Below, one piece after another: positions 1 through 29,489 of a DNA stretch of 47,204 bases. Location: the IMG/VR virus record IMGVR_UViG_3300035698_007038, positions 1 through 47,204 of that record; one strand, 5' to 3'. A program made the translations under genes and the position numbers. The DNA comes from a virus. The notes beneath the pieces are model-generated. The model worked only from the letters and a program-made list of their open reading frames with translations. It searched no databases and was not told where the DNA came from. How positions within the stretch are numbered: the first letter of the stretch is position 1; each line of letters begins with the position of its first letter.

Positions 1-150
1 GTACATGTATATAACATATATATATATATAATATGAGGCACATGTATATATATAATATATATATATAATATAACGTACGTATGTACATGTATATATATAT
101 ATATAATATATAACGTACGTATGTACGTATATAACATATATGTTTATAGT
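1..150. repeat. AT-rich simple-sequence terminus with short direct repeats
   Basis: Almost pure TA-rich sequence. A 16-bp unit (TAACGTACGTATGTAC) occurs at 71-86 and again at 111-126, exactly 40 bp apart. An 11-mer, ACATGTATATA, occurs at 3-13, 40-50 and 85-95. The opposite end of the window (47160-47204) is similar TA/ATT sequence. This may be the centre of a divergent intergenic or origin region in a circular map, or simply the low-complexity place where assembly stopped. No gene is seen here. Confidence 0.6.
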
Positions 151-656
151 TTATAGTTTACTGTATACACTATACCATGCTGTACTTCGTATATGCCCTG
201 TCATACTCCACTACACTTCACCATTACCTGTGACACTTTACCGTGACACTCGTGACACATAGTCTATATCCATACTATTACCTATGCTTAGTACGTATGT
301 GTACTACATGTGGGTACTATGTATTAGACAATAGCCTATGATCATCATGATATAACCCTGTACCTGCGTTATATAAACAGTCAACGCTGCATACATATGT
401 CATAAAACAAGGGCATTGGTCATAATATGCATGGGGGGTATGGTATTTTAATTTGATTTACTAGGCACGTTCTATGTACACTACGTTGTGTGGGGGTATA
501 TATTTATTTAGGTGCGGGGGGACCCCAAACATTTAGGCCGATGCGTAGGCAAGGCCGGGGACCCTAAGCACATCATTTACAGCGATTTTGTAAGGGGTGT
601 ACGGTAAAGCAACTATCCGGGTTCCCCGGTAAGTTCAACTTGTGAGGAGAGAGATT
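151..656. other. Noncoding region with GC-rich island and hairpin
   Basis: No convincing gene. GTGACAC occurs three times in 29 bp (230-236, 243-249, 252-258). A GC-rich stretch at about 512-575 contains runs of G and C and two GGCC sites, unlike the AT-rich flanks. A perfect 5-bp hairpin (CCGGG-TTC-CCCGG) at 617-629 lies just upstream of the first small ORF. The region could hold a packaging or replication signal or leader RNA; none can be named from sequence alone. Confidence 0.4.
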
Positions 657-3107: not shown

Positions 3108-3602
3108 TTGAAATGGAAACGAAGACATGGATTAGTGATATCGAAACCCAGGATTATTCAACCTTACCGGGTGATTTTACATCATACGGGTGGGAGTTCG
3201 GTAAGTGGGGCAGTTTCGACACTTATTCGTCGCAAACTAGGATATCATTATATCATTACGCGCGATGGCCATATACACGAATTAGTCCCCGCGAGCAGGA
3301 AAACATTCCATGCCCGTAGGAACAATGTAGGTACTGTAGGAGTATCCTTTGTTGGGGGAGGAAGAGCAGGTTGGGTAAACGAAATGCAGATAGATACATG
3401 TGTTAAATTACTACGTATCTTAAGGCATGACTACCCATCAATCAAAGAGCTTTCTGGACATAAGCATGTAGATGCTAAAGGGAAAATAGATCCCAGATTT
3501 CCAGGAGAACCAGTGAATGGGATAGATTGGGAGATCGATAGTGGGTACATGAACCTGATAGCGAATGAGACTGATCTTAAATTTATATCTAAACAGGGGT
3601 AA
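3108..3602 (+). CDS. Endolysin: N-acetylmuramoyl-L-alanine amidase (Amidase_2/T7 lysozyme-like)
   Basis: The 164-aa protein begins with TTG directly after the holin stop codon, with GGGGA just upstream. The zinc-amidase pattern is visible: ILHHTGG (His25/26), GYHYIITRDG, HARRNN with VGVSFVGG, and GHKHVDAKGKIDPRFPG, which supplies the later His and the Lys/Asp region. Known family members cut the bond between muramic acid and L-alanine of peptidoglycan. There is no signal peptide, so release through a holin is expected and fits the gene before it. The length is close to T7 lysozyme. The T7-type role of inhibiting RNA polymerase is unlikely because no phage polymerase is seen. Confidence 0.88.
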   Translation: MKWKRRHGLVISKPRIIQPYRVILHHTGGSSVSGAVSTLIRRKLGYHYIITRDGHIHELVPASRKTFHARRNNVGTVGVSFVGGGRAGWVNEMQIDTCVKLLRILRHDYPSIKELSGHKHVDAKGKIDPRFPGEPVNGIDWEIDSGYMNLIANETDLKFISKQG

Positions 3603-3614
3603 GAGGAAAATAAA

Positions 3615-3713
3615 ATGAAAGAGTTTTTTAGTAAATTCGTAGCGCACGTCAAGGCACATCCTTACGTGTACGGCAGCATAGTTGCTGTAGTTATATTATT
3701 TATTGCTTTATAA
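3615..3713 (+). CDS. Micro membrane peptide 1 (32 aa)
   Basis: ATG 8 nt after AGAGG. A charged N-terminal half (MKEFFSKFVAHVKAHPYV) is followed by a single hydrophobic helix (YGSIVAVVILFIAL) that ends at the stop. It is the first of five consecutive micro-peptides of 25-32 residues, each with one membrane helix, between the endolysin and the tRNA. No homologue is recognised. Similar size and position to small lysis or membrane peptides of other phages is inference. Confidence 0.5.
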   Translation: MKEFFSKFVAHVKAHPYVYGSIVAVVILFIAL

Positions 3714-3723
3714 GGAATAGATA

Positions 3724-3801
3724 ATAGAAAAAAGTAAACGCATATTTATAATCGCAGGGGTAGTTGTACTAATAACTATCTCAGTGTTAATAGCAATTTA
3801 A
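3724..3801 (+). CDS. Micro membrane peptide 2, apparent AUA start
   Basis: The frame encodes (I)EKSKRIFIIAGVVVLITISVLIAI and then stops: a basic N-terminus followed by one clean membrane helix, just like its neighbours. It contains no ATG, GTG or TTG before the helix. A ribosome site AAGGAA (3712-3717) lies 6 nt before ATA at 3724 (a second ATA is at 3721, and an in-frame TAG at 3718). Either AUA serves as start, or a start was lost by mutation or sequencing error. Confidence 0.4.
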   Translation: MEKSKRIFIIAGVVVLITISVLIAI

Positions 3802-3814
3802 AGAGGAATATAAC

Positions 3815-3907
3815 ATGTCAGAACATGGAGAAGGCGGTAAAAAACGCTGGATTATTATAGGCATCGCGGTAGTAGCGGTAGTAGCCTTAGTAGTCGCAAT
3901 TTTATAA
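3815..3907 (+). CDS. Micro membrane peptide 3 (30 aa)
   Basis: AAGAGGA (3801-3806) precedes the ATG by 8 nt. The hydrophilic start MSEHGEGGKKRW leads into one helix rich in V, I and A (IIIGIAVVAVVALVVAIL) that ends at the stop codon. Type: N-in basic, C-terminal anchor. Function unknown. Confidence 0.5.
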   Translation: MSEHGEGGKKRWIIIGIAVVAVVALVVAIL

Positions 3908-3908
3908 G

Positions 3909-3998
3909 ATGGCCAAGAATAGATGGGGTCTTGGGACCCCTGGTTATATTGTAGGTGGAATTTTAGTGGTAGTATTTATTATTACCATGTTTTTTTAA
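3909..3998 (+). CDS. Micro membrane peptide 4 (29 aa)
   Basis: Starts 1 nt after the previous stop (TAAGATG), so translation is probably coupled; no strong ribosome site of its own. MAKNRWGLGTPGY is followed by a hydrophobic helix (IVGGILVVVFIITMFF) that ends at the stop. Function unknown. Confidence 0.45.
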   Translation: MAKNRWGLGTPGYIVGGILVVVFIITMFF

Positions 3999-4018
3999 TA
4001 GAAAAAGGATAGGTGATT

Positions 4019-4102
4019 ATGCACGGTAAACCCCCGTATATATTTTATGCGGTAGGAGGATTCCTAGTAGTGATGTTCGTGATAGGCTTCTTTTGCCTAT
4101 AA
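4019..4102 (+). CDS. Micro membrane peptide 5 (27 aa)
   Basis: Preceded by AAAAGGATAGGTG. MHGKPPYIFYAVGG leads into FLVVMFVIGFFCL at the C-terminus, one membrane helix with a near-terminal Cys. Its stop codon is 7 nt upstream of the tRNA. Function unknown. Confidence 0.45.
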   Translation: MHGKPPYIFYAVGGFLVVMFVIGFFCL

Positions 4103-4109
4103 GTAATGA

Positions 4110-4183
4110 CGCGGAGTGGTAAAGTAGCATTACGCGGGGCTCATAACCCCGAAGCCCGGGTGCAATTCCCGGCTCCGCTACCA
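4110..4183 (+). tRNA. Initiator-type tRNA-Met (anticodon CAT)
   Basis: Cloverleaf by eye: acceptor CGCGGAG (4110-4116) with CTCCGCT (4173-4179), so 1-72 is a C-U mismatch and 2-7 pair perfectly; A73 and encoded CCA (4180-4183). D-stem GTAA/TTAC with a 7-nt loop lacking the usual GG. Anticodon stem CGGGG/CCCCG (4135-4139, 4147-4151) around loop CTCATAA. T-stem CCGGG/CCCGG with loop TGCAATT, so position 55 is G rather than T. The unpaired 1-72 and the run of G-C pairs at the bottom of the anticodon stem are hallmarks of bacterial initiator tRNA. An elongator Met or lysidine-Ile tRNA is the alternative. The missing D-loop GG together with the altered T55 is odd, as these normally contact each other. 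Confidence 0.8.
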
Positions 4184-4188
4184 ACAAC

Positions 4189-4280
4189 GGGGCTGTTATA
4201 GAAAGAGGTAGTCCATGTGTTCTAAAGAGATACGTGGGATCAACTACCTAACGGTGGTGCAAATCCACCCAGCTCCATCA
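4189..4280 (+). ncRNA. tRNA-like element with tmRNA-type ends
   Basis: Starts 5 nt after the tRNA. The acceptor-like stem GGGGCTG (4189-4195) pairs with CAGCTCC (4270-4276), including a G3-U70 wobble, the alanine identity pair and the same ends as bacterial tmRNA. The discriminator is A, but the tail is TCA rather than CCA. A T-arm GGTGG-TGCAAAT-CCACC (4253-4269) has the same TGC loop as the neighbouring tRNA. There is no recognisable D-arm. The middle is a 7-bp helix AGGTAGT/ACTACCT (4206-4212, 4243-4249) enclosing CCATGTG/TACGTGG. It looks like the tRNA-like domain of tmRNA with helix P2 but without a tag frame. A degenerate tRNA with an insertion is an alternative. Confidence 0.5.
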
Positions 4281-4299
4281 TATGAGTATACATGTGATT

Positions 4300-4690
4300 A
4301 AAGAATTAATCTTAGGAGAAGATTCCTAAGTACTGAATTTGAGTCAGTGTGGCCATTAAGTCGTGCATTGAGGAATTTCGCTACTTTAGGACATTGACTC
4401 AACCTAACATAAGACTTGCTCCTCGGAGCATGAAACTCGGAAGTGAACGTTCCGTCGAGTATAAGAAAGTAGAGGCGTTTATTAAGACCCATGGAGCGTG
4501 TTTCACGTGTAGAAATGGGCGGTTACTGGAGCGGTGCTACGGAAATTCGAAACCGGTTTACCGGCACTATGTAGAAGGAACTGGCGCCGTATGGTAAGGA
4601 AACCCACTGCCTAACCCTGCGTTAGGAGGAGAGCGACACCTGCTCAGAAAGCAAGTGGTGTGACTAGGCGCGGGAGAGACCGTAGCCCTT
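4300..4690 (+). ncRNA. Candidate structured noncoding RNA of unknown class
   Basis: About 400 nt between the tRNA-like element and the next gene, with no credible coding frame but many stems. CTTAGGA/TCCTAAG (4311-4330). A 12-bp helix 4339-4350 with 4391-4402 (one G-U). TGCTC-CTCG-GAGCA (4417-4430). CGGAA/TTCCG at about 4437-4453. CCTAAC-CCTGC-GTTAGG (4610-4626). ACACC-TGCT/AGCA-GGTGT (4636-4661). GCTACG (4536-4541) could pair with CGTAGC (4681-4686) over a long range. Large structured RNAs beside phage tRNAs are known (for example GOLLD), but no match to a named class can be claimed. RNase P, group I and group II intron cores were looked for and not found. Confidence 0.5.
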
Positions 4691-4713
4691 AATTAAAAAA
4701 TAAAAAGGATACG

Positions 4714-4965
4714 ATGATGTTCGGAGGAGAATACCCAATATACATGTTATTTGCTCCTGTGTTAGCTTTGTTCGGATTCTTACTAAGAAGAACAGTGGTT
4801 AAATTAGACCAGACGATGACAGAAAAGGAAATACGCACATTGATTAGTGACAGGCTAGATCCTATCTATGTTAGGCAATCATACATAGACCAAGAGTTAA
4901 AACGGATAGACCATAAATTAGATCAAATTATGGAAATATTATTAAATGCGAAAAATAGACACTAA
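4714..4965 (+). CDS. Small membrane-anchored coiled-coil protein (83 aa)
   Basis: AAAAGGA (4703-4709) lies upstream; the start may be ATG 4714 or 4717, the latter better spaced. One N-terminal helix (IYMLFAPVLALFGFLL) is followed by RR and then a long charged helix with heptad character (LDQTMTEKEIRTLI... QELKRIDHKLDQIMEILL). The type resembles phage membrane proteins found beside terminase and lysis genes, or a short inner-membrane spanin, but no family is assigned. It overlaps the start of terS by 20 nt. Confidence 0.6.
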   Translation: MMFGGEYPIYMLFAPVLALFGFLLRRTVVKLDQTMTEKEIRTLISDRLDPIYVRQSYIDQELKRIDHKLDQIMEILLNAKNRH

Positions 4966-27863: not shown

Positions 27864-29489
27864 TCAGTCTATGTCCTCACCATAGTCCGTAACAATCGCG
27901 GCCTCAGTGGTCAACAATAACGTCGCAACACTAGCGGCGTTTTTTAATGCTTCCTTGACTACCTTAACGGGATCGATCACCCCTGCTTCTACTAGATTCT
28001 CGTACTGTCCTGAGGCAGCGTTGAATCCTGTCTCCACATGGGCAGCATCCGTTGTCTGCTGAATAACTAACGTTGGCTCATATCCAGCGTTTTTTGCTAT
28101 CTGCGCTAAGGGAGATGCTAATGCTCGACTCACTATATTAATACCCGCACGTTCAGATGAGTTAGATCCTTTCATATCTTTCAGGAGACTGATGGCCTTG
28201 ACGTATAAGGTACCTCCTCCAGGCACGATACCGCTCTCTGCGGCTGCCTGTACGGCGAATACAGCATCATCAATGCGGTCCTTAGACTCTCTCATCTCAA
28301 GCTCTGTAGAGCCTCCCGCACGTATTACAGCAATTCCTCCTAGGAGCTTAGAAATACGACCCTTCAGGTATGGTATCGCCTTAGCTGCGGCGGGTACATC
28401 TTTAATCTTATCCATAAAGTCATTGATCTGAGAAATCCTATTCTTAATGGTCTTCTTCTTACCTGCACCCCCAACAATTGTTGTATCTTGCCTAGTAACA
28501 ATAACTCGTTTTGCTTGTCCTAAATGCTCCAGCTTACATGACCTAGCATCTACTCCAGTATGGTGTCCTAGAACAGTGGCTCCTGTCAGTGCCGCTAAAT
28601 CTTTAGCTAACTCCGTACCATCCTCTTCGAATCCCATAGGAAAAGCAGTAGCACATACTTTAATAGATCCTTGCATATTATTTATAGCTAAAGTATTAAT
28701 AACTTCTGGTTCGTAAGAGTCAACCAGTAATAATAAAGGCCTGCCTGTGGAGGCCACCTCATTCAAAATATCTACTAGTTCGTGTATAGTATGCAGCTTG
28801 TAATCAATTAACATGACGTAGGCATCTTCATACTCTACCTTCATGTGACGTTGGTTGGTAACGAAATACGGAGAGGCATATCCCTCATCGTACCTCAGTC
28901 CTTCTACGTATTCTATGGTAGTGTCTGCCTGCCTGCCCATTTCAACGGTGATGGCTGCCTCGGCTCCTAACTTAAATTTAGCAGTGGCAATCATCTCGCC
29001 CAGAACTTTGTCCGAATTAGATGAAATTGTAGCGACGTGGGTCAACTCTTTCTTAGTGTTGCAGGGCTTGGCCTGATCATCCATAAAAGATTGTACCTTC
29101 TCTACTGCCTTGTCTATTCCCTTGGTGACGTGTACTACATTGTTGCCTGCCGCAATCGCTTTCTTACCCTCATTGAATATGGCACGAGCCAGTACCGTAG
29201 CTGTGGTGGTTCCGTCACCAGCAATTTCAGCAGTCCGCTGCGCCGCCTGACGTACCATCTGTGCTCCGATGTTCTCGAATGGGTCCTTTAGTCTGCGTAT
29301 AGATTTAGCTACCGTGACTCCATCCTTGGTCACCGCAAAGGCATTAGGTCCTGGCTCAAAGGCGACGTGTCTACCGCCGGGTCCTAGTGTGGCCTGTACT
29401 GCGTCGGCCAATAAGTTAATGCCCTTGGATATTTTCTCGCGAGCAGCTTCGTCAAACTTGACTACTTGATGTGGTTGTTTATTACTCAT
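27864..29489 (-). CDS. groEL: GroEL chaperonin (phage-encoded)
   Basis: 541 aa, full length for the family (E. coli 548). Landmarks: ATLGPGGRHV at about 33-42, TKDGVTVAKSI at about 54-64 (Asp of the ATP site), GDGTTT at 91-96, EGYASPYFVTNQ in the apical GroES- and substrate-binding region, RIDDAVFAVQAAAESGIVPGGG near 395-415 with the catalytic Asp. The C-terminus ends TDYGEDID and lacks the bacterial GGM tail. It should form a 14-mer folding chamber with the phage GroES at 9145. Its ATGA start overlaps the exonuclease stop. The last gene of the minus block. Confidence 0.95.
   Translation of the reverse strand: MSNKQPHQVVKFDEAAREKISKGINLLADAVQATLGPGGRHVAFEPGPNAFAVTKDGVTVAKSIRRLKDPFENIGAQMVRQAAQRTAEIAGDGTTTATVLARAIFNEGKKAIAAGNNVVHVTKGIDKAVEKVQSFMDDQAKPCNTKKELTHVATISSNSDKVLGEMIATAKFKLGAEAAITVEMGRQADTTIEYVEGLRYDEGYASPYFVTNQRHMKVEYEDAYVMLIDYKLHTIHELVDILNEVASTGRPLLLLVDSYEPEVINTLAINNMQGSIKVCATAFPMGFEEDGTELAKDLAALTGATVLGHHTGVDARSCKLEHLGQAKRVIVTRQDTTIVGGAGKKKTIKNRISQINDFMDKIKDVPAAAKAIPYLKGRISKLLGGIAVIRAGGSTELEMRESKDRIDDAVFAVQAAAESGIVPGGGTLYVKAISLLKDMKGSNSSERAGINIVSRALASPLAQIAKNAGYEPTLVIQQTTDAAHVETGFNAASGQYENLVEAGVIDPVKVVKEALKNAASVATLLLTTEAAIVTDYGEDID

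Follow-up and report, generated by a model that had tools for sequence, protein, structure and literature searches.

Large non-coding RNAs encoded beside tRNA genes are known from phages, and GOLLD and ROOL are the described types closest to the locus analyzed here. According to the accessible part of one report, GOLLD env-38 is located downstream of a Met-tRNA and GOLLD binds ribosomes in pull-downs (PMC12286853). The phage RNA presented here shares the position beside a tRNA gene; it differs in being shorter, in lacking a match to the covariance models of these RNAs and in carrying a hairpin antisense to 23S rRNA together with a separable 3' pseudoknot. The C/D box guide RNAs of archaea and eukaryotes are likewise short RNAs complementary to conserved rRNA; however, the host of the phage RNA is presumably bacterial and its complementary stretch is, as we take it, longer than that of the guides. 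Residues neighbouring its target have been addressed by antisense PNA; according to the accessible part of a review, growth of E. coli is inhibited by a PNA directed at 23S helix 69 (PMC7038079). That compound is synthetic and its site is helix 69 itself. With the helix borders assumed by us, the site of the phage RNA touches helix 69 only at its 3' edge. No description of a phage RNA pairing with ribosomal RNA was found in the titles and abstracts of the openly accessible papers retrieved.

The window, that is the complete virus record of 47,204 bases analyzed here, contains an operon with, in this order, an amidase gene (3108-3602), small membrane genes, the gene for tRNA-Met, a non-coding stretch, a gene for a protein of 83 amino acids (4714) and the genes for the small and large terminase. 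The preliminary description had placed a structured RNA of about 400 nt and of unknown class at 4300-4690 next to a tRNA, and the tRNA is indeed present. The segment makes up the final portion of a composite locus of non-coding RNA, which spans about 4110-4690 and consists of four parts: an initiator-like tRNA-Met, a tRNA-like element, a hairpin antisense to 23S rRNA and a 3' pseudoknot with a GAGAG hairpin (Table 1). The non-coding stretch is longer than originally described because the tRNA-like element occupies sequence upstream of it. Neither this element nor the antisense match had been noted, nor had the last ~60 nt been recognized as a portable motif of their own.

Table 1. Features of the composite RNA locus in the window (23S rRNA positions in E. 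coli numbering)
Feature	Position	Strand	Basis
tRNA-Met (CAT), initiator-like	4110..4183	+	ARAGORN; Rfam, 56.2 bits; acceptor pairs
tRNA-like element without D arm	4189..4280	+	fold z -4.1; RF00005, 21.3 bits, below cut-off
Antisense hairpin, 12-bp stem 4339-4350/4391-4402, 40-nt loop	4339..4402	+	plus-strand fold
Antisense patch A, GAGTCAGTGTGGCC, against 23S rRNA ~1984-1998; doubles as 5' stem strand	4341..4354	+	direct alignment
Antisense block B against 23S rRNA	4371..4392	+	21/22 nt = complement of E. coli 1923-1944
Middle motif GAAACCGGTTTACCGGCACTATGTAG, form common to the window, L001 and L002	4549..4574	+	three-sequence comparison
3' motif, H-type pseudoknot and GAGAG-loop hairpin, in many phages	4625..4687	+	model R1, 42.9 bits, E 8.7e-10

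Our findings agree with the earlier statement that the stretch holds no credible gene. Pfam gave no match for the GTG frame at 4349 (82 aa), and its protein-coding reading was rejected on this ground and because no conserved frame was found in the relatives; the conserved amino-acid pattern that had been named as the sign of a gene was not found for this frame. In the relative L001 no plus-strand ORF crosses the RNA except one of 30 aa at the 5' edge, and the RNA of the relative L002 contains frames of 69 and 55 aa. The 12-bp helix enclosing 40 nt is exact, TTGAGTCAGTGT pairing with ACATTGACTCAA with one G-U, and forms the main stem of the plus-strand fold. The claim of an unusual density of structure is partly true. 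The 401-nt stretch as a whole folds at z = -2.0 (3 of 100 shuffles being as good), but the excess is located at the ends of the locus: the tRNA-like element reaches z -4.1 and the antisense hairpin z -2.1, and the middle (4406-4620) is no more stable than its shuffles (z +0.2). The claim of a deviating base composition is weakly true, since the GC content of 0.47 exceeds that just upstream (0.36-0.455), but a value of 0.477 recurs in the terminase gene. The core reading stands in that this is a structured non-coding RNA whose class Rfam searches do not match; it does not extend to one uniformly structured RNA of ~400 nt. In the actual architecture an antisense hairpin at the 5' end is followed by a middle of low conservation and by a modular pseudoknot at the 3' end, which many phages carry on its own.

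The tRNA-Met has a C1-U72 mismatch and a GGGG/CCCC anticodon stem, and the tRNA-Met of L001 a C1-A72 mismatch; by the mismatch at 1-72 and the anticodon stem we take it to be initiator-like. The neighbouring tRNA-like element combines an acceptor stem (GGGGCTG/CAGCTCC with G3-U70 and discriminator A73), a T arm and a single long arm that stands where a tRNA has its anticodon arm, and none of 200 shuffles folds as well. Its counterpart in L001 (1873-1964) also possesses a G-U as third pair and A as discriminator. G3-U70 and A73 are presumably alanine identity features. In these traits, as well as in the T arm, the absence of a D stem and the encoded 3' end, the element resembles the tRNA-like domain of tmRNA; it differs in measuring only ~90 nt from acceptor strand to acceptor strand and in having no mRNA-like domain, pseudoknots or tag frame. 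The L001 element matched the tmRNA model RF00023 with 28.8 bits (E 3.3e-8; cut-off 47) in a long search, and in a short-stretch search scored 14.1 bits against RF00023 and 17.4 bits against permuted tmRNA, all below cut-off; ARAGORN called no tmRNA in the window or in L001. Decoding by the element is unlikely because its central arm is not alike in the window and L001. Inspection of the L002 stretch by eye revealed no tRNA-like element.

L001 and L002 were obtained among 77 loci by a search with the large terminase (75 and 73% identity, respectively). Both carry a non-coding RNA at the same genomic place as the window, and L001 also has the tRNA-Met and the tRNA-like element. The DNA of the window's copy and L001 aligns over only 55 nt (78%), which drew attention to the antisense block. 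In the middle region, the three sequences have the short motifs GAAACCsG, GGCAC, GTAG and GGAAA in common, in this order, and their consensus fold shows few compensatory pairs there (n=3). The covariation check proposed in the preliminary description gave a strong result for the 3' pseudoknot and hairpin, and for the remainder it draws on three sequences, whose covarying pairs are too few for a firm structure of the middle. Members with the antisense RNA number three, two of them from one metagenome (3300035698). A search for the antisense in those of the terminase relatives L003-L077 collected by then found none, and the large non-coding gaps of L005, L010, L014 and L025 look unrelated upon reading. 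Scans of IMG/VR with patterns of the middle motifs returned L002 only, a looser form adding coding-looking chance matches (L107-L109). Two antisense pattern scans of IMG/VR yielded L001 alone, and a third gave 28 stretches, only L002 extending well past the pattern; antisense matches in the phage collection were genuine rRNA records or chance. Two of the terminase relatives attracted attention for other reasons: L007 contains a candidate Type-P1 twister ribozyme (416-477, minus strand; 61.8 bits, cut-off 67.2), and in L014 the non-coding end at 3880-4200 has the look of a putative TnpB-type guide RNA.

The match to 23S rRNA was assessed with five rRNA operons from four phyla (E. coli, Flavobacterium, Aureimonas, Priestia and Fischerella). 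On the opposite strand, block B of the window deviates from the rRNA by a single C to U change that still pairs as U-G, and the same 22-nt match is present in all five operons. L001 matches in 20 of 20 nt (1996-2015) and L002 in 45 of 59 aligned columns (517-575) for E. coli, Flavobacterium and Aureimonas and in somewhat fewer for Priestia and Fischerella; in E. coli numbering the sites are 1924-1943 and 1921-1973, respectively. With strict gap costs none of 200 dinucleotide shuffles reached the observed antisense score, for each of the three sequences, and the best scores against the 23S sense strand and both strands of 16S rRNA lay inside the shuffle range. A gap-friendly chain alignment did not separate the window's copy and L001 from shuffles (35.5 vs a shuffle maximum of 38.4, and 34.0 vs 37.9), and the antisense claim therefore rests on the compact block. 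The antisense is also the best rRNA match in each of the three whole records (36.5-41.0 bits vs at most 27.4). Upstream of block B, patch A is antisense to 23S ~1984-1998 in all three, reading GAGGCAGTGTGGGC in L001 and GAGGCAGCGTGGCC in L002, and direct reading of the hairpin stem reveals a compensatory change from U-A to G-C in L001. The complementarity is long and goes beyond chance, as is expected of a trans-acting antisense RNA.

For the hairpin region of the window and 23S rRNA, a duplex is predicted in which 46 of 55 nt are paired in runs of 23, 7, 9, 4 and 3 pairs, leaving 18 nt of the rRNA looped out, presumably about where helix 71 is located. Duplex energies for the window's copy, L001 and L002 amount to -70.5, -68.4 and -100.6 kcal/mol, values that leave aside the cost of unfolding either RNA (z -7.4 to -9.8 relative to mononucleotide shuffles); with the rRNA of the other four organisms they range from -55.2 to -93.5. 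When 51 windows along 23S rRNA were compared, the two overlapping the antisense site ranked first and second for all three RNAs. Because patch A also supplies a strand of the stem within the RNA itself, folding competes with pairing, and since the target lies within the folded 50S subunit its accessibility is only putative.

Taken together, this is a real composite phage non-coding RNA locus: all three members carry the 23S antisense and two of them the tRNA-like element, and the pseudoknot is a conserved motif. That it yields a non-coding RNA which acts through base pairing with the host ribosome is suggested by the sequences with a probability that we put at roughly 40%. Enzymes of tRNA processing would cleave the operon transcript at both the tRNA-Met and the tRNA-like element, releasing an RNA of ~400 nt whose 3' end may be guarded by the pseudoknot and the GAGAG hairpin, as their placement in other phages suggests. 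Its 5' hairpin would present the antisense of 23S rRNA domain IV, and computation predicts that it pairs with positions ~1922-1944 and, beyond a looped-out hairpin, with patches up to ~1998. Immature or free 50S subunits would offer the easiest access for pairing, which could there hinder subunit assembly or subunit joining and so favour takeover by the phage. The growth inhibition described for PNA against helix 69 speaks for the feasibility of such an action. If real, such pairing would be a new mode of host takeover, aimed at a site nearly identical in all bacteria.

It is somewhat unlikely, albeit a serious consideration, that a piece of a 23S gene was captured in reverse and served as mere raw material for a structured RNA, its complementarity being functionless. 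The window's copy and L001 keep block B, L002 keeps 1955-1973 with insertions, and such different remnants of one ~80-nt rRNA region are expected of decay from a single insertion; patch A would then have been reused as a stem strand. The interruption of block B by insertions in L002, which retains another antisense stretch, has the look of a decaying relic and counts against antisense action. On the other hand, 20-21 of 20-22 nt of block B have been kept in the window's copy and L001, in RNAs that have otherwise diverged past DNA alignment. About four of some six distinct substitutions in the patches replace C by U or A by G and keep a G-U with the rRNA, a number too small to decide.

The plus strand is favoured as the active one. 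The neighbouring genes, both tRNA elements and the 3' motif all reside on it, and the whole RNAs of the window, L001 and L002 reach fold z values of -2.0, -0.1 and -2.4 on the plus strand vs -0.6, -0.6 and -1.2 on the minus strand. The hairpin region is likewise more stable on the plus strand in the window (-20.3 vs -13.6) and in L001 (-19.6 vs -14.3); this pattern is broken by the whole RNA of L001 and by the hairpin of L002 (-22.9 vs -26.5). The latter would suit an active minus strand, read from which the hairpin presents 23S sense sequence closed by a stem, a mimic of domain IV and possible decoy for enzymes or toxins that attack this rRNA region. Toxins of the MazF type that cut rRNA exist. 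Against this quite improbable reading stand the direction of the genes and tRNA elements, the stem energies in the window's copy and L001 and the pseudoknot motif, which is oriented on the plus strand as in other phages; the promoter-like sites on the minus strand (~4737-4765 and 4458-4485) stem from a scan that gave 8 sites vs 5.8 in shuffles (sd 2.3).

We consider it very improbable that the locus encodes a large ornate RNA of the GOLLD/ROOL type, a multimeric scaffold whose rRNA match is incidental. The likeness to GOLLD put forward in the preliminary description holds for the position beside tRNA-Met, shared with GOLLD env-38, and the ribosome binding reported for GOLLD in the accessible text would also fit (PMC12286853). 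The resemblance ends there, as the RNA has about half the length of GOLLD, a middle without excess stability and no match in Rfam even with E values of up to 10 allowed. In the same search of 4000-4800, ROOL, group I and II introns, HEARO and known ribozymes were rejected as well, and no match to the GOLLD and ROOL covariance models was found at the gathering cut-off in the whole window.

Independently of any action on ribosomes, the 3' motif is a structured RNA motif with helices covarying across phages, a compact fold that is unmatched in Rfam searches and directly testable. In the window, P1 (GAGC/GCTC) and P2 (ACACC/GGTGT) are followed by the GAGAG-loop hairpin; the topology is that of an H-type pseudoknot, the P1 loop GACACCU pairing with a downstream GGUGU, with the hairpin on its 3' side. 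A 50-nt match of the window to Salinibacter phages (84%) led to an exact-pattern scan, which retrieved 19 IMG/VR stretches and six genome contigs without selection on the stems of P1 or the GAGAG hairpin. Matches of a relaxed scan were filtered by helix P2, so that conservation of P2 is partly by construction, and the hairpin set required at least three hairpin pairs. Across 43 instances P1 forms 130 pairs vs at most 117 in 2000 shuffles, though it is weak in part, with only two pairs in 18 of the 43 and none in one. In 17 sequences all five pairs of the GAGAG hairpin change on both sides and 97.6% of cells are paired; the covariation score of this alignment is 0.430 vs 0.113 (0/500). Alignment A3 omits instances of odd loop or stem length for which MAFFT had given no alignment in A2.

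Model R1, built from 17 sequences with the window excluded, recovers the window with the score given in Table 1. It matches all 19 strict IMG/VR loci (eight used in the model), all six genome contigs (one used; L112 and L114 weakly, 20-22 bits) and, among the matches listed, 33 of 100 relaxed-scan loci (seven used), where L125, L131, L174 and L184 look like chance matches. The motif was not found in the records of L001 and L002, and Rfam gave no match to it in the window stretch or in L116, L121, L146 and L167. At ten loci among the matches listed it lies no more than 20 nt after a mechanically called ORF on the same strand; ten upstream proteins that were searched comprise two major head proteins, two Gp2.5-like ssDNA-binding proteins, one pyrophosphatase and five without assignment, and L081 adds an SSB. 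A tRNA occurs within ~500 nt in 8 of 43 motif loci scanned (the window, L078, L082, L093, L142, L146, L168 and L172), and copies stand in tandem in L085 (10219-10347), L168 (5090-5371) and L172 (3677-3948). With this placement after ORFs, near tRNAs and in tandem, a putative function as a transcript 3'-end or spacer element fits better than a riboswitch, an idea that was rejected because the genes downstream have no common family.

The motif's occurrence alone in many phages, and that of the hairpin without it in L001 and L002, would agree with the tRNA-like element, antisense hairpin and pseudoknot being separate intergenic elements side by side, the pseudoknot marking the 3' end of the operon mRNA and no 400-nt RNA being made, but hairpin and middle motifs recur in the same order and genomic place in three relatives, and we regard this as the least probable explanation. 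An RNA that pairs with the ribosome may be part of a larger scheme, which we deem unlikely in its entirety: a cassette aimed at translation would combine an initiator-type tRNA, an alanyl tRNA-like element reduced from tmRNA and an RNA complementary to the core of 23S rRNA between the subunits, and would seize or stall host ribosomes by direct rRNA pairing. The widespread 3' pseudoknot, unmatched by Rfam, would protect or delimit transcripts, above all next to tRNA genes and downstream of genes for structural and ssDNA-binding proteins.

Several individual loci deserve mention. In L168 the tandem array lies downstream of a gene for a major head protein, and 8 nt separate its end from a tRNA-Met. 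In the Salinibacter ruber phages MF580961 and MF580962 (L078/L079) the motif ends 3 nt before a tRNA-Asp and overlaps in part with a CDS annotated as hypothetical (AUO79334.1 in L078); both phages carry a complete tmRNA (80 bits in L078), a feature absent from the listed annotation. A weak tmRNA match with the look of a tRNA fragment (20 bits; 142-199, minus strand) was seen in L146 next to an array of tRNAs in which the 3' motif also occurs. In the window itself, the stretch with the tiny membrane genes (3600-3999) folds much better than shuffles (z -4.8 and -4.2) and includes terminator-like hairpins at 3669-3689 and 3925-3940, and a frame of 541 aa on the minus strand (27864-29489) has, by eye, the look of a GroEL-type chaperonin.
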